DNA of 64,000 nucleotides from Thioalkalivibrio nitratireducens DSM 14787 (GTDB taxonomy: Bacteria > Pseudomonadota > Gammaproteobacteria > Ectothiorhodospirales > Ectothiorhodospiraceae): positions 3,472,001 through 3,536,000 of the forward strand of contig NC_019902.2 of NCBI RefSeq assembly GCF_000321415.2, written 5' to 3'. Below, piece by piece: positions 29,612 through 63,867 of this stretch (within the stretch, counting starts at the first letter, position 1; each line of letters opens with the position of its first letter). The notes beneath the pieces were generated by a model, which had not been told where the DNA came from, made no database searches, and was given only the letters and a program-made list of their open reading frames with translations. The position numbers and the translations under genes were made by a program.

Positions 29612-32600
29612 TCAGGCCTCCTGCGCCTTGATCAGTTCGACCCGCGAGCGCACGTACAGGTAGTACAGCACCGGGATGATCACCAGCGTCAGCAGCGTGG
29701 ACACCAGGATGCCGAAGATCAGCGAAATTGCGAGCCCGCTGAAGATCGGGTCGTCGATGATGAAGCCCGCACCAACCATTGCGGCCAGCCCGGTCAGCAC
29801 GATCGGCTTGGCCCGCACCGCGCCGGCATTCACTACCGCGTCGATCACCGCAACGCCGCGCCGGATCTCCTCGTTGACGAAATCGACCAGCAGGATCGAG
29901 TTGCGCACGATGATCCCCGCCAGCGCGATCATCCCGATCATCGACGTCGCGGTGAACTTCGCGTCCATGAAGAACGCGTCCATGAACGCGTGCCCCGGCA
30001 TCACCCCGATCACGGTGAGGGGGATCGGCGCCATGATGATCAGCGGCACCATGTACGACCGGAACTGGGCCACCACGAGCAGGTAGATCAGGAGCAGACC
30101 CACCGAGTAGGCGATGCCCATATCGCGGAAGGTCTCGTAGGTCACCTGCCATTCGCCGTCCCACTTCAGACTGAAGCGGTAGGGGTTGTCCGGCTGGTCG
30201 ATGAACAGCTGGGTCAATGGCTCGCCGAAAGCCATCGGCATGTCGCGCAGCTGGAAGAACAGGTCGAACATTCCGTACAGCGGGCTGTCTACTCCCCCGG
30301 CCTGATCCCCGACCACGTAGACCACCGGCAGCAGGTTCTTGTGGTGGATCGCATGCTCGCGCGTGGTGTCGACGACTTCGACGACCTCGGAGATCGGCAC
30401 CAGCGCGCCGTTCTGCGCGCGCACGTGCAGCCCGAGAACCGTCTCGAGGTCGGCCATGTCGGCCTCCTCGAACTGCAGGCGCACCGGCACCGCGTATTTC
30501 ACGTTGGTTCCGTAGAGGAAGGTCACGTCCTCGCCCGCCAGCGCGGTCTGCACCGCGGACACCACCGACTGCTGTGAGACACCCAGCCGTGCCGCGCGCT
30601 CGCGGTCGACACGCAGGATCCGCTTGGGACCGGGATGCTCGACCGAGTCGTCGATGTCGGTGATGTTCCGGGTGTTCTTGAAGACCTCGCGAACCTGGTG
30701 CGCAATCTCGATCTGGCCGTCGTAATCGGGGCCGTAGATCTCGGCAACGATCGGCGACAGCACCGGCGGGCCCGGCGGCACCTCGACCACTTTCACGCGG
30801 CCACCGTGGTATTCGGCGATCGCGTTGATCTCCGGGCGCACCGACAGCGCAATGTCGTGGCTCTTGCGGTCGCGTTTCTTGGCGTCGGTCAGGTTGACCT
30901 GGATGTCGCCGAGGTGGGCGCCCTCGCGCAGGTAGTACTGCCGCACCAGACCGTTGAAGTTAATCGGAGCAGCGGTGCCGGCATAGACCTGCACGTCGCG
31001 GACCTCGGGAACGGCGCGCAGGTAGTCTCCCATCTCGCTCAGCACCTGCTTGGTGTGTTCGAGGCTGGTCCCCTCCGGCATGTCGAGTACCACCTGGAAC
31101 TCGGACTTGTCGTCGAAGGGCAGCATCTTCAGCACCACTACCTGGAAGTAAACCAGCGACACCGAGCCCAGGATCAGCACCACGGTACCGCCGAGCATCA
31201 CCATCCGGGACAGCACCGCCTTGCGCGTCTCGCCGAGGAACGGGCGCAGGATCACGTCGAACAGCCTCGCCAGCTTCTTCGAGGCTTGCTCGTCGCTGTG
31301 CTCGCTGTGGCCGGCCTCGATCGCACGTTCGTGCAGTTCGGCCTGGCGCCGCAGCACCTTGTAGGTAAGCCAGGGTGTGACCACATAGGCCACCGCCAGG
31401 GAGATGATCATCCCCATGCTGGCGTTGATCGGGATCGGGCTCATGTACGGGCCCATCAGGCCGGTGACGAAGGCCATCGGCAGCAGTGCCGCGATCACGG
31501 TAAAGGTCGCGAGGATGGTCGGCCCCCCGACCTCGTCCACCGCGACCGGGATCGCCTCGAGGAACTTCTTCTTGCCCATGCTCATGTGCCGGTGGATGTT
31601 CTCCACCACCACGATCGCGTCATCGACCAGGATCCCGATCGAGAAGATCAGCGCGAACAGCGAAACCCGGTTCAGCGTGAAGCCCCAAGCCCAGGATGCG
31701 AACAGGGTGATCGCGAGCGTGATCACCACCGCGGTGCCGACGATGAAGGCCTCGCGCCAGCCGAGCGCGATCCAGACCAGCACCACCACCGAGGCCGTCG
31801 CGAAGATCAGCTTCTGGATCAGGGTTTTCGCCTTCTGATCCGCGGTCGCGCCGTAGTTGCGGGTGATCGTGGTCTCGATGCCGTCCGGGATGTAAGTGCC
31901 ACGCAACTGCTCGAGGCGGTCGACCAGCGAATTGGCGATGTCCACCGCGTTGGTGCCCGGCTGCTTGGCGATCGCGACCGTGACTGCCGGGTGCATATGG
32001 CCGAGATGCGCCTCCCGGTCGGCTGCCGCACCGTCGGCGTAGCTCACGTGCTGCGTCGCGTAGCCGGGGCCCTGCACGACCGCGGCGACGTCGTCCAGGT
32101 AGACCGGCCGCCCGTCGTGCATTCCCACCACGAGGCCGGCGAAGTCCTCAGCGCGCGTGATGAAGTCGCCGGCCTGGACCAGGACTTCCTGGTTGTCCTG
32201 GAACAGCGCGCCGGCATCGCGACTGAAGTTGCTCGCCTGCAGGGCGTTGCGCAGTTCCTCGACCGACAGGCTGTAACCGGCGAGCGCCTCCGGGCGGAAA
32301 CGCACGTGGACGACGTGATCCGGGCCGCCCACGGTGTAGATATCGCGGGTTCCGGGAACCCGCTTCAGTTCCGACTCGATCGCATGCGCGACCGCGGCGA
32401 GGTCATGGCCGCCACGGGTTTCGTCCTCGGTCCACAGGGTTACGGTGACGATCGGCACGTCGTCGATGCCCATCGGCTTGATCAGGGGTTCTCCGACGCC
32501 GAGGTTCTGCGGCAGCCAGTCCTGGTTCGAGAACACCTGCGTGTACAGCCGCACGAGCGCATCGGTCCGGTCCTCGCCCACCTTGAACTGCACCGTGATC

Positions 32601-32899
32601 TTGGCCATGTTCGGCTGCGAGGTGGAGAAGATGTCGTCGATCCCCTCGATCTCGGACAGCACCTGCTCGGCCGGGGTCGCGACCAGCTGTGCCACCTCCT
32701 CGGCGGTCGCGCCGGGGAACGGAATGAACACGTCGGCGATGGTGACGTTGATCTGCGGCTCTTCCTCGCGGGGGGTGATCATCACCGCAAACAGCCCCAG
32801 CATCAGGCCGACCAGCGCCAGCAGCGGCGTGATCTGCGTCGTCAGAAATTTCCGGGCGATGCGCCCGGAGATCCCCATCGGCTTGTCCTCCGCACTCAT
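29612..32899 (-). CDS. RND efflux permease (AcrB/HAE1-like)
   Basis: The 1095-residue inner-membrane proton antiporter has twelve predicted membrane helices. The first is at about 20-40, and two periplasmic loops are large. The helix-4 signature (SIGILVDDAIVVVENIHRH) contains the proton-relay aspartates. The C-terminal half repeats the pattern (MIGMIALAGIIVRNSILLVDFV). The substrate cannot be read from the sequence. Its start overlaps the stop of the adaptor gene by four bases. No outer-membrane channel gene is nearby, so a TolC-like partner must come from elsewhere. Confidence 0.93.
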   Translation of the reverse strand: MSAEDKPMGISGRIARKFLTTQITPLLALVGLMLGLFAVMITPREEEPQINVTIADVFIPFPGATAEEVAQLVATPAEQVLSEIEGIDDIFSTSQPNMAKITVQFKVGEDRTDALVRLYTQVFSNQDWLPQNLGVGEPLIKPMGIDDVPIVTVTLWTEDETRGGHDLAAVAHAIESELKRVPGTRDIYTVGGPDHVVHVRFRPEALAGYSLSVEELRNALQASNFSRDAGALFQDNQEVLVQAGDFITRAEDFAGLVVGMHDGRPVYLDDVAAVVQGPGYATQHVSYADGAAADREAHLGHMHPAVTVAIAKQPGTNAVDIANSLVDRLEQLRGTYIPDGIETTITRNYGATADQKAKTLIQKLIFATASVVVLVWIALGWREAFIVGTAVVITLAITLFASWAWGFTLNRVSLFALIFSIGILVDDAIVVVENIHRHMSMGKKKFLEAIPVAVDEVGGPTILATFTVIAALLPMAFVTGLMGPYMSPIPINASMGMIISLAVAYVVTPWLTYKVLRRQAELHERAIEAGHSEHSDEQASKKLARLFDVILRPFLGETRKAVLSRMVMLGGTVVLILGSVSLVYFQVVVLKMLPFDDKSEFQVVLDMPEGTSLEHTKQVLSEMGDYLRAVPEVRDVQVYAGTAAPINFNGLVRQYYLREGAHLGDIQVNLTDAKKRDRKSHDIALSVRPEINAIAEYHGGRVKVVEVPPGPPVLSPIVAEIYGPDYDGQIEIAHQVREVFKNTRNITDIDDSVEHPGPKRILRVDRERAARLGVSQQSVVSAVQTALAGEDVTFLYGTNVKYAVPVRLQFEEADMADLETVLGLHVRAQNGALVPISEVVEVVDTTREHAIHHKNLLPVVYVVGDQAGGVDSPLYGMFDLFFQLRDMPMAFGEPLTQLFIDQPDNPYRFSLKWDGEWQVTYETFRDMGIAYSVGLLLIYLLVVAQFRSYMVPLIIMAPIPLTVIGVMPGHAFMDAFFMDAKFTATSMIGMIALAGIIVRNSILLVDFVNEEIRRGVAVIDAVVNAGAVRAKPIVLTGLAAMVGAGFIIDDPIFSGLAISLIFGILVSTLLTLVIIPVLYYLYVRSRVELIKAQEA

Positions 32900-33954
32900 C
32901 GGGACACCTGCTGTGCTTCCTTCAGGTAGATGCTGGCATGGACCGGATCCAGCGCGATGCGCTCACCCTCGCGCAGTCCGGCCAGCACCTCGAAGCCCTC
33001 CGGTAGCTCGCGCCCGACGCGGATCTGCCGAAACCCGACGCGCCCTTCGGGGTCGACCGTATAGACGGCCACGACCTCGCTGCGGAACACCACGGCCTCG
33101 GACGGCACCACCAGTCGCCGGTCCTCGCCCAGCTTGACCGCGGCCTTTACGAACATCCCCGGGAACAGGCCCAGATCCCGCTCGGTCTCCGGCAGGTTCA
33201 GCCGCACTCGGAAGGTGTTGGTCGACGGATCCGCGTACGGAAAGATCGTCAGGCTTTCGACCTCGATGCGCTCCCCGGTATCCAGCACCACGTGCGCCTC
33301 GCGGTAGCGGCGCAGATCCTGGATCAGCCGCTGCGGCACGTTGATTTCGACGCGCAGTTGATCAAGGCTGATCCCGGTGACCAGCGGTGTTCCCGGGCTC
33401 ACGGACTCGCCGACCTCCACGTGGCGCTCGGTAAGGATTCCGGCGAACGGCGCGACCACCTGCGTATACCCCAACTGCTCACGCGCCTCGGCCAGCGACG
33501 CCTGGGCGGATTCGACGCGGGCGCGCGCGGAATCCCTCGCCGCCCGTGCACGATCGAATTCGGTTTGTGACACCAGCCCATCCGCAAAGATGGTTTCGAT
33601 GCGCTCGAACTCGGAACGCGCCTCCTGGAACCGCGTACGGGCCTCGCTCAGGCTGCCTTCCGCGGCACGCACCCGCGCCTGCTGTTCGCTGTCGCTGAGG
33701 CGCAGCACCAGGGCATCCTGCTCGACGAAGTCATCGACGTCGTAGTGGACCTCGAGCACCCGGCCCGATGTCTGGGCGGAGATGGTCGAACGGCGCACCG
33801 CCTCGACCCGGCCATCAACGATCCGCTCCTGCATCAGCGTCTGGCGTTCGACCGTGGCCGTCAGGAACGGCAGGTCCGCCGCTCCCGCCAGCACGGGCAT
33901 GACCAGCAGCAGCGCGAGCCCCGCCGCGCTCCGTTTCATCGATTCAAGCGTCAT
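32896..33954 (-). CDS. RND periplasmic adaptor (membrane fusion protein)
   Basis: The 352-residue protein has a signal peptide (MKRSAAGLALLLVMPVLAGA). It also has a split barrel-sandwich/lipoyl domain (QTSGRVLEVHYDVDDFV; YTQVVAPFAGILTERHVEVG), a helical hairpin (about 95-165) and beta-barrel and membrane-proximal domains. It bridges the permease to an outer-membrane channel. The ATG at 33954 follows ggggaa. The second ATG at 33939 would also leave a full signal peptide. The operon is preceded by an AT-rich palindrome at 34000-34021, likely its operator. Confidence 0.92.
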   Translation of the reverse strand: MTLESMKRSAAGLALLLVMPVLAGAADLPFLTATVERQTLMQERIVDGRVEAVRRSTISAQTSGRVLEVHYDVDDFVEQDALVLRLSDSEQQARVRAAEGSLSEARTRFQEARSEFERIETIFADGLVSQTEFDRARAARDSARARVESAQASLAEAREQLGYTQVVAPFAGILTERHVEVGESVSPGTPLVTGISLDQLRVEINVPQRLIQDLRRYREAHVVLDTGERIEVESLTIFPYADPSTNTFRVRLNLPETERDLGLFPGMFVKAAVKLGEDRRLVVPSEAVVFRSEVVAVYTVDPEGRVGFRQIRVGRELPEGFEVLAGLREGERIALDPVHASIYLKEAQQVSR

Positions 33955-33999: not shown

Positions 34000-34021
34000 T
34001 ATATTAGAATTGGCTAATATA
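34000..34021. promoter_or_regulatory. AT-rich palindromic operator, TATATTAG-N6-CTAATATA
   Basis: A perfect 8-bp inverted repeat with spacer aattgg stands out in GC-rich DNA between the divergent RND adaptor gene and the tautomerase gene. It holds -10-like hexamers on both strands, so a bound repressor could block either promoter. Its core TTAG-N6-CTAA recurs upstream of soxA. AT-rich ATTAG/CTAAT dyads of this size are typical of ArsR/SmtB-family repressors; assignment to that family is inference. Confidence 0.7.
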
Positions 34022-62180: not shown

Positions 62181-62870
62181 TCACTCGTTGACCGGGGACT
62201 CCGGATCGAACATGTACGCCATGATGTCGGCGATCGCCTGCTCGTCCAGGAACCCGCTCGCACCGAAGCGCGGCATGTGGGTGCAGGGGAAGTAGACGTG
62301 GGGGTTGTAGATCATGTCGTACGCGTACTTCAGGATCGCCTCGCCGCTGCCGCGAGTCTTGCCGTAACCCGTCAGGCCCGGACCCACGGTACCGCCGGTG
62401 CGGTCCATGGCGAACTGGTGGCAGTTGTAACAGGTACCACCGACTTCGCGGGTGGTGTGGTCGTCATAATTGTGACCGACGCGATAACCGAAACCGGACC
62501 AGGCCAGCTCACGGCCCCGCTCCCAGTCACCGAGCTGGATGCCGCCTTCCGGATACACGATCGACTCTGCGGCCGCGGCGCGAATGGCGTTCATCGTATC
62601 GGCATCCGGCTTGCCGTCGCCGATGATCGAGCAGGCCTCCTGCAATTCGTCCTGCTGCATGCGGTCACGCGCAGTGCCGCCCTCCTGCATTTCCTGGCTC
62701 AGATTGAAGCCGCCACCGTCATTCGCCTCGAAGATCAGGTACTCGGCGAGTTCGTGCGGCGTCATCGCGGTGTAGTCGACCTGGTCGGCATCGGCCACCG
62801 CAGGGCCACCAGCGACGAACAGGGTTGCGAAAGCGGCAACACCGGCCGCCAGAGAGGTCTTCTTGAACAT
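62181..62870 (-). CDS. soxX: Sulfur-oxidation cytochrome SoxX
   Basis: The 229-residue periplasmic protein is the small cytochrome c subunit of SoxXA. It has a signal peptide (MFKKTSLAAGVAAFATLFVAG; about 26 residues) and one heme-binding CYNCH (residues 147-151). A likely axial Met is at residue 199 in CTHMPRFG. An extra stretch before the heme (about 40-120) is longer than in minimal SoxX. It follows soxA by 27 bp. No soxYZ, soxB or soxCD is in the window. Confidence 0.92.
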   Translation of the reverse strand: MFKKTSLAAGVAAFATLFVAGGPAVADADQVDYTAMTPHELAEYLIFEANDGGGFNLSQEMQEGGTARDRMQQDELQEACSIIGDGKPDADTMNAIRAAAAESIVYPEGGIQLGDWERGRELAWSGFGYRVGHNYDDHTTREVGGTCYNCHQFAMDRTGGTVGPGLTGYGKTRGSGEAILKYAYDMIYNPHVYFPCTHMPRFGASGFLDEQAIADIMAYMFDPESPVNE

Positions 62871-62897: not shown

Positions 62898-63731
62898 TCA
62901 GCGCTTCATGTCGGGCAGGATGGCAGGTTGGCCGCGGCCCACGTCGGTCCAATACGAGATCAGCGCGATCGAGGCGTCGGAACCCGCGAGCATGCCGGCC
63001 TGACGCATCTGGAAGTAGCAGCCCCGGACACGGTGTTGGCTGCTGCGAACGTGGTCATGACCGACCCGGAAGGCGGGCCAGGAGATCGCCTTGGTCCATT
63101 CCTCGCCGACACTCGCATCGGGCAGCCGCGAGGCGCGCACCTGCTTGCCGGTCTGACCGTGACACGCGTAGCAGTTGAAATCGGACATGCCGGCACGGCG
63201 GGCGAACAGCACCTCGCCGGCGTCACGCATCGCCTTCTCCAGCGGATGATCGAGCGGGTTGTTCCACTCCATGCCGTTGGACTGCATCGCGATGTAGGTC
63301 TGGATCTGCATGTGATCCGAGCCCGAGCCATGCCGCGTGGTCACCGCCGGGTCATCCGCAGCGAATCCCTGCACCTCGGTCATGCAATGCACGATCCGGG
63401 TCTCGAGGTCCATCACCTTGCCGGTGTCCTCGAAGTAACGCGGCAGCTCGACGTAGGCACCTTCCAGCACGCCGGGACCCTTGCCGAAATCGCAGGCTTC
63501 CATCGAGACATTGTTCGGCCCGCGCGGCGTATGGAACAGATCCTCACCGTCCATGCCAACCCACAGCGCCGGGTTGTCGGGCATCATCATGATGTTCATC
63601 TCACTCTGGGTGAGATAGTCGGAGGGGAGTTTGTCGATCAGCGCCTGAAGGACGTCCTCCGGTGCCTGGGCATGGGCCGTAGCCCCCAGAGCCAGTGCCA
63701 CGGGTAGCGCGAGCAAGGCCTTCTTGAACAT
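62898..63731 (-). CDS. soxA: Sulfur-oxidation cytochrome SoxA, single-heme type
   Basis: The 277-residue periplasmic protein is the catalytic subunit of L-cysteine S-thiosulfotransferase SoxXA, which joins thiosulfate to the SoxYZ carrier. A signal peptide ends near TAHAQ. One CYACH heme site lies at residues 187-191. The cysteine heme ligand is C238 in VRGCYFQMR. In place of the N-terminal heme of diheme SoxA there are single cysteines (C80 in EACDFG and C116 in VHCMTEV), probably a disulfide. The ATG at 63731 has ggaggtttcc just upstream, better than ATG 63743 or GTG 63746. Confidence 0.93.
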   Translation of the reverse strand: MFKKALLALPVALALGATAHAQAPEDVLQALIDKLPSDYLTQSEMNIMMMPDNPALWVGMDGEDLFHTPRGPNNVSMEACDFGKGPGVLEGAYVELPRYFEDTGKVMDLETRIVHCMTEVQGFAADDPAVTTRHGSGSDHMQIQTYIAMQSNGMEWNNPLDHPLEKAMRDAGEVLFARRAGMSDFNCYACHGQTGKQVRASRLPDASVGEEWTKAISWPAFRVGHDHVRSSQHRVRGCYFQMRQAGMLAGSDASIALISYWTDVGRGQPAILPDMKR

Positions 63732-63805: not shown

Positions 63806-63832
63806 GTGCTAATGTGCGGAACCCCCTGTCAA
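63806..63832 (-). promoter_or_regulatory. Predicted soxA promoter with a half-site over the -10 region
   Basis: On the minus strand a consensus TTGACA lies at 63832-63827. The -10 is weak (tagcac at 63811-63806, spacing 15, or gcacga at spacing 17). A half-site cacattagc (63816-63808 on the minus strand) overlaps it. Initiation near 63797 would give a leader of about 66 bases. A poor -10 with a perfect -35 fits a regulated promoter. Confidence 0.55.
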
Positions 63833-63839
63833 CAAAAGT

Positions 63840-63867
63840 CATCACATTAGCGACTGCTAACGTGATG
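63840..63867. promoter_or_regulatory. Inverted repeat catcacattagc-gact-gctaacgtgatg upstream of soxA
   Basis: The two 12-bp arms differ at one position only. The core is TTAG-N6-CTAA, the same core and spacing as at 34000-34021. It lies eight bases upstream of the soxA -35, centred about 57 bases before the predicted start point. It is a probable binding site for a dimeric regulator. Confidence 0.7.

Follow-up and report, generated by a model that had tools for sequence, protein, structure and literature searches.

Can one regulator act on both thiosulfate oxidation and an RND efflux pump in Thioalkalivibrio nitratireducens? The question is raised by two palindromes in the window, the whole stretch of 64,000 nucleotides that was analysed. 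The first-pass annotation assigned both of them the core TTAG-N6-CTAA, placed one upstream of soxA and the other upstream of an RND operon, and proposed that they are a shared operator of an ArsR-family regulator.

Palindromes of the window

The pattern TTAG-N6-CTAA is found exactly twice in the 64-kb window, at 34004-34017 and 63847-63860, which agrees with the two dyads described at 34000-34021 and 63840-63867, and it is absent from 100 dinucleotide shuffles of the window. The first dyad, TATATTAG-AATTGG-CTAATATA (34000..34021, no strand assigned), includes the core ATTAG-N6-CTAAT at 34003-34018 and is the candidate operator of the RND operon. This operon codes for an RND periplasmic adaptor of the MFP type (32896..33954, minus strand; TIGR01730 229 bits, cut-off 94.9), whose true start is maybe slightly downstream, and for an RND permease (29612..32899, minus strand; Pfam ACR_tran 502 bits) whose closest solved chains are MexK and similar proteins. 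The second dyad, CATCACATTAGC-GACT-GCTAACGTGATG (63840..63867, no strand assigned), appears to be a weaker copy of the operator and can form a 13-bp hairpin on the minus strand. The reverse complement of its right arm is CATCACGTTAGC, so that the arms read catcac(a/g)ttagc. A -35-like hexamer, TTGACA (63827..63832, minus strand), follows the core at a distance of 13-15 nt in most loci of the genus. The genes behind it are soxA (62898..63731, minus strand; TIGR04484 191.3 bits, cut-off 110) and soxX (62181..62870, minus strand; TIGR04485 75.4 bits, cut-off 61). The proposed placement of the two sites upstream of soxA and of the RND operon is thus correct.

The two sites differ in quality. The 96 distinct sites behind the scoring matrix come mostly from the genus and family; they include the RND site of the window and no soxA site. 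The only window positions that reach at least 0 bits are the RND site (39.9) and the soxA site (16.8). The median for exact sites is 32.7 bits versus 16.8 for the soxA copy, whose arms outside the core depart from the shared consensus.

Distribution of the motif in genomes

The bare core TTAG-N6-CTAA is present at 7 places in the whole 4.0-Mb genome versus 15 for the reversed control. It is therefore not enriched by itself, and raw-core enrichment was dropped as support. All 7 copies are preceded by an A and 6 of them have a T after CTAA. The longer palindrome ATTAG-N6-CTAAT occurs 6 times in the genome versus 0 for the reversed control, so that enrichment over the control is seen for the extended form and not for the bare core. 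The same comparison in 58 genomes gave 94 versus 3 in the 30 genomes of the genus (the window's own included), 21 versus 2 in 7 others of the family and, as a weaker enrichment, 81 versus 28 in 21 more distant genomes.

The site loci examined were drawn from among the matches listed, not from every site of every genome, and genes were called with a simple in-house caller that is crude and gives approximate gene starts. None of the 58 rows of the first site set (57 distinct sites, as L068 repeats L156) lies inside a called gene. In the second set, two of whose 42 sites repeat sites of the first, this is the case for 2 of the 42 (L269, and L283 in a doubtful 68-aa frame). The extended TTAG/CTAA palindrome is supported by these distributions as a real, conserved operator common to the RND operon and to sulfur genes. 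The first-pass annotation had considered a clustering of sites at sox, sqr, fcc or dsr genes and at an ArsR-family gene; judged by the neighbouring genes seen, sqr, fcc, dsr and BigR-type ArsR genes are found at 0 of the 7 sites of this genome.

Note that the genome of the window has, besides soxA, five sites with one mismatch, two of them close to the genes of a second RND adaptor and of an MBL-like protein. They were left out of the evidence. The site of the second adaptor (L016, C1:3043179-3043194) reads ATAAGTATACCCTAAT followed by ATATAA and stands ~330 bp before the called start of the gene. In genome G051, two near-identical sites (GCTTATATTAGNCGATNCTAATAGAATG; L279, L280) are found ~200 bases from contig ends and may belong to a repeat or mobile element.

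The RND operon operator in relatives

The RND site is the strongest member of the predicted regulon. The stretch before the adaptor gene was aligned for the best 30 loci of the genus and family. All 29 aligned loci contain the site, 27 of them exactly and 2 with nine of ten bases. In the thirtieth, whose contig begins with the site and which stays outside the alignment (L133), an exact site is located 71 bp upstream of the adaptor gene. Core columns of the 29 sequences have 2.0 bits (one has 1.6) versus a mean of ~0.2 bits in the flanks, showing that the operator is conserved above its neighbouring sequence.

Homologs of the adaptor protein of the window gave 429 matches, of which the best 80 were taken as pump loci and scanned from 350 bp upstream to 30 bp into the adaptor match, with an equal length inside the gene as control. 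The closest named relatives among these best 80 belong to Thioalkalivibrio. An exact upstream site was found in 35 of the best 80 of 429 loci and a nine-of-ten copy in 13 of the 80, while the best score of the control inside the gene was 8 (of 10). The promoter stretches hold 36 exact sites versus 3 in the rest of the 789,870 bases, and the reversed control gave 0. Exact sites are found in 14 of 17 Thioalkalivibrio loci, two others having nine of ten bases and the last just 92 bases of upstream sequence, and in 7 of 7 loci of Ectothiorhodospira. No upstream copy of nine or more bases is present in the 10 Marinobacter pump loci. Adaptor homologs of two further families (L262, L263) also carry the site. 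A common -35 element at fixed spacing from the RND site is weakly discernible in 50 sequences (TTG at offset -26 in 9 and at -24 in 7), from which an overlap of the operator with the -10 is plausible. As the operator is conserved in relatives, the pump may be under the control of a sulfur-sensing protein along with sulfur metabolism.

Targets of the operator related to sulfur metabolism

The other sites of the window's genome are found upstream of a YgaP-like membrane gene (PF11127) that is followed by an MBL-fold hydrolase gene, upstream of a sulphur globule protein gene (PF17228), of a cytochrome c gene (PSCyt1) and of a DUF302 gene, and between alpha/beta hydrolase-like and ABC-F ATPase-like genes (by eye). 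The MBL hydrolase beside the YgaP-like gene remains under every NCBIfam cut-off with which it was compared. No ArsR was seen among the called genes in the 10-kb stretch round the YgaP-like/MBL genes. ArsR genes of an ELCVCEL type, 1.5-9 kb from some YgaP-like sites, were discarded as candidates: their sequence reads as that of metal(loid) sensors and the nearby copies of the motif have at most 7 of 10 bases.

Targets in relatives were tallied by reading 50 loci (L156-L205), RND sites being left out; Pfam was searched with one protein of each main kind and the remainder were grouped by sequence likeness. They comprise YgaP-like genes (12), sulphur-globule-like genes (8, plus 2 related), nitrate-type substrate-binding protein genes (10), genes for 133-aa secreted proteins (4) and for a small membrane protein (3), DUF302 (2), one PSCyt1-like gene and 8 others. 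In other genera the site lies between rhodanese-like (by eye) and TolC-like genes (L156, L266, L273; one TolC scanned), and in L276 it precedes an SQR-like gene. Most recognisable targets are thus sulfur-related, the nitrate-type transporter and an Rrf2-like gene being exceptions.

The dyad upstream of soxA

Among 30 soxA loci, all 8 core bases are kept in 16, 7 of 8 in 3 and 6 of 8 in 5; the core is absent at its place in 4 (L049, L050, L052, L053) and 2 are unscorable (L041, L054). Matrix scores, given for 28 loci, are 14-25 bits in the 16 intact ones and in L056, 7-12 bits in L038, L043 and L044, 2-3 bits in L042 and L045-L047, and below 0 in L052 and L053. L049 and L050 have an 18.9-bit copy elsewhere, ~380 bp upstream of soxA. 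The element thus decays in one subclade. The presence of both sites in relatives, which the proposal of a shared operator implies, therefore holds at the RND operon (35 of 80 exact among the best 80 of 429 loci) and is partial at soxA (intact core in 16 of 30).

A serious alternative, judged somewhat the less probable, is that the soxA dyad is the intrinsic terminator of an MGMT-like gene upstream; it would then resemble the RND site by accident, and the only true operator of the window would be that of the pump. The soxA-sense (minus) strand of the dyad indeed encodes a hairpin of 13 bp and a 4-nt loop, with cTTTTg behind it (z -5.0 for a 71-nt stretch). This stable hairpin with a U-run is found in the subclade of the window, where folding is more stable on the sense strand than on the antisense one. 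An MGMT-like gene of the same orientation is the first one called upstream in 18 of 28 loci (by eye). The non-Watson-Crick pairs of the soxA-sense dyad, counted at nine pairs (positions 4-12 from outside, counted from 0) in 19 distinct sequences, are G.T in 33 cases, A.C in 1 and other in 30, a bias that RNA pairing would favour; the sequences are related and the count therefore represents only a handful of independent events. The upstream gene, however, ends ~250 bp from the dyad, which is not the placement of a terminator just behind a gene end. The other subclade combines a weak hairpin (-3 to -6 kcal/mol) with a higher operator score (22-25 bits), and in most loci the core retains its place 13-15 nt upstream of TTGACA even where the arms change. 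L056, from another genus, scores 18.5 bits at the corresponding place although its next upstream gene points away, so that no terminator is needed. Scores of at least 14 bits are, moreover, rare: 232,635 bases of ArsR-centred loci have 4 such positions, including one true site and the copy upstream of the ArsR gene of genome G033 described below. The terminator-like hairpin in the subclade of the window, set against the weak hairpin and higher operator score in the other, leads us to hold soxA as a probable but weaker, putative member of the regulon. The shared operator originally proposed is thereby retained in its extended form, conserved at the RND operon and at sulfur genes, while its bare core is unenriched and its soxA copy is weaker and has a terminator-like rival.

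Candidate regulators

The regulator is probably a two-cysteine ArsR protein of the BigR/SqrR kind. Such genes adjoin both the operator and RND-type transporters in other bacteria, which makes this kind the best candidate. Two tandem exact sites separate a two-cysteine ArsR gene from a divergent MMPL/RND transporter gene in L259, and an exact site is found 27 bp upstream of another two-cysteine ArsR gene in L287. The best 80 of 429 pump loci contain ten BigR-type ArsR genes (tblastn), in nine loci. In one of them, from a Solemya symbiont (L378), an exact site separates the RND operon from the ArsR gene, which stands directly before it. In L346 an exact site lies ~105 bp upstream of the second of two ArsR copies, a two-cysteine protein, and in L331 three nine-of-ten sites are found upstream of a two-cysteine ArsR gene. 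The exact site of L372 is ~1.4 kb upstream of its ArsR gene. Six of the ten genes have no near site of nine or more of 10 bases: five of the nine loci are devoid of such sites anywhere (L335, L356, L357, L370, L371) and for the first ArsR copy of L346 such a site is found only at 5 kb.

In the genome of the window the regulator is most likely a 117-aa ArsR (C1:3865468-3865818) acting from a distance. It matches ArsR/SmtB winged-helix models (PF01022 47.9 bits, cut-off 22; NF033788 83 bits, cut-off 55) and its best match is BigR (3pqj, 1.9e-19). Both BigR cysteines are aligned, as they are with HlyU and with YgaV, the latter also in a multiple alignment. It is the only one of 12 PF01022 matches in the genome that has both of them (by eye). 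Its score to the BigR equivalog NF040642, 81.3 bits, is below the cut-off of 155 and the protein is therefore not classed as BigR itself. The ArsR of L378 is 57% identical to it over 97 residues. The promoter of the ArsR of the window's genome has no copy of the operator and the gene is unlinked to the targets, so that it would act in trans without autoregulation. The ArsR-family regulator of the first-pass annotation thus gains a candidate of the BigR/SqrR kind from adjacency in other bacteria and none from a site at the corresponding gene of this genome. In genome G033 (L255), which has the operator at its pump, two PF01022 ArsR genes are found at E 1e-4. One is of BigR type and the counterpart of C1:3865468-3865818; ~28 bp upstream of it is an 8-of-10 copy of 14.5 bits.

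A second candidate, considered improbable, is an ArsR-rhodanese fusion (C1:1709056-1709730) that would take the place of the BigR-like ArsR. Its rhodanese domain fits a sulfur sensor, its promoter has the 8-of-10 copy TTTAGAATTTGCTGAT ~50 bp upstream, and several ArsR-rhodanese homologs, fusion genes included, have upstream copies of 10-14 bits (L026, L098, L114, L117, L122, L124, L245). The copy is poorly kept among nine fusion homologs of at least 71% identity (L097-L105), where it has 8 of 10 bases in one, 7 in one and at most 6 in the rest, the 90% identical homolog of genome G011 among them. The fusion is devoid of the two BigR cysteines, and genomes G033 and G035 carry the RND operator although their best matches to the fusion reach just 6e-9 and 4e-10. 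On the copies of its homologs and the missing cysteines it was ranked below the BigR-like ArsR as main regulator. In one subclade of the ArsR-rhodanese upstream copies TTAG and CTAA are ten bases apart (by eye).

Palindromes of 5-6-5 layout are an architecture of the CRP type too. The operator might accordingly belong to another family, for example CRP/FNR- or TetR-like, next to which the adjoining ArsR genes would be coincidental; its layout is compatible with a CRP-type protein and a part of its targets are non-sulfur genes. This is held to be very improbable given the motif in the promoters of four two-cysteine ArsR genes (exact in L259, L287 and L346, nine of ten in L331), the ArsR gene directly before motif and pump in L378, and the binding of HlyU, an ArsR protein of the two-cysteine kind, to an oligonucleotide that bears an 8-of-10 copy (in the available part of PMC10509353).

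Relation to known sulfur-sensing repressors

The predicted two-cysteine ArsR operator belongs to a kind of sulfur-sensing regulon that is already known; its consensus is newly defined and its RND target is conserved. The consulted parts of PMC10451225 and PMC12423496 describe sulfane-sulfur ArsR repressors that act on sox and shdr genes. In section 2.1 of PMC12423496, RND pumps are given as likely targets or gene neighbours of such regulators. The link between sulfur and RND pumps, initially thought undescribed, was consequently already present there at the level of gene neighbourhood. The repressors BigR, SqrR, SoxR, sHdrR, YgaV and HlyU share with the candidate two conserved cysteines, the ArsR fold by sequence and sulfur-gene targets, as well as, according to the same section of PMC12423496, RND pumps among their gene neighbours. 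In contrast to them, the candidate would have dispersed targets, reached through the defined TATATTAG-N6-CTAATATA, and an unlinked gene.

The SqrR site ATTC-N8-GAAT, as given in the available portion of PMC9774250, has the same 16-bp frame ATT-N10-AAT, but its half-site ATTC differs from the ATTAG found here, where the fourth base is A and is followed by G. The HlyU operator of Vibrio cholerae is a 17-bp TAATTCAGACTAAATTA (PMC4330345), and the oligonucleotide of PMC10509353 contains ATTAA-N6-CTAAA, with 8 of 10 bases of ATTAG-N6-CTAAT. HlyU activates a haemolysin gene in V. cholerae, whereas here the pump would be repressed. The BigR operon of Xylella and Agrobacterium, in the accessible part of PMC5823870, likewise puts an MBL enzyme of persulfide dioxygenase type under a two-cysteine ArsR. 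That enzyme is a DUF442-ETHE1 fusion encoded beside bigR with a TauE-related transporter, unlike the YgaP-like transmembrane protein and separate MBL hydrolase found here. The ygaV promoter of Escherichia coli holds no copy that reaches 8 of 10 bases and was excluded as a direct operator match. No relevant paper was found when full texts were searched for the motif string together with ArsR or BigR; PMC6018088, in its available part, has the string only in a primer. The portions consulted of PMC7315123, PMC5823870, PMC6018088 and PMC9995734 do not give the motif as an operator. Nor was the operator found in the literature on SqrR, RND and sulfide, on Thioalkalivibrio regulons or on sulfur oxidation with RND and ArsR, within a reach that leaves out supplements and most subscription papers, and no study of sulfur-substrate sensing was found in that on Thioalkalivibrio.

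Proposed mode of action

With a probability of roughly two in three, TATATTAG-N6-CTAATATA would be the operator through which a two-cysteine ArsR repressor of the BigR/SqrR/YgaV kind controls a regulon. In the model that we infer for the binding of ArsR, its signal, the direction of regulation and the control of soxA, the reduced ArsR dimer would occupy the palindrome and thereby obstruct the promoter. On accumulation of sulfane sulfur (persulfide, polysulfide), a sulfur bridge would form between the two cysteines and ArsR would leave the DNA. Its release would then allow production of the RND pump, of the YgaP-like membrane protein and MBL hydrolase and of the sulfur-globule protein and, less certainly, of soxAX.

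A wider view, put forward tentatively and rather unlikely as it stands, would make an RND pump gated by sulfane sulfur a permanent component of lithotrophic sulfur oxidation across gammaproteobacteria as different as soda-lake Thioalkalivibrio and Ectothiorhodospira and the Solemya symbiont; in some genera TolC would belong to the regulon as well. Such a pump might carry polysulfide, zero-valent sulfur or a persulfidated product out of the cell when the oxidation of thiosulfate and sulfide accelerates, and would share its operator with the sulfur-globule coat protein and soxAX. The analysis provides a defined operator and a target list for a class of sulfur sensors, together with a testable reason for the conservation of an RND pump beside sulfur oxidation.

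Further targets

In ten genomes of the genus an exact site is located ~90-200 bp upstream of the gene for the nitrate-type substrate-binding protein (L163, L166, L170, L173, L176-L178, L181, L184, L187), which sits behind an ANTAR/NasR-like regulator gene (by eye; one copy scanned). These sites hint at a possible link between sulfur and nitrate. An exact site is also found 58 bp upstream of the Rrf2-like gene, beside a flavohaemoglobin-like gene (by eye), in L157 (G007:C11:40364). The small membrane protein, which has no Pfam match (one copy scanned), is a recurrent target in two genera (L169, L179, L189, L270, L271, L291, L295).
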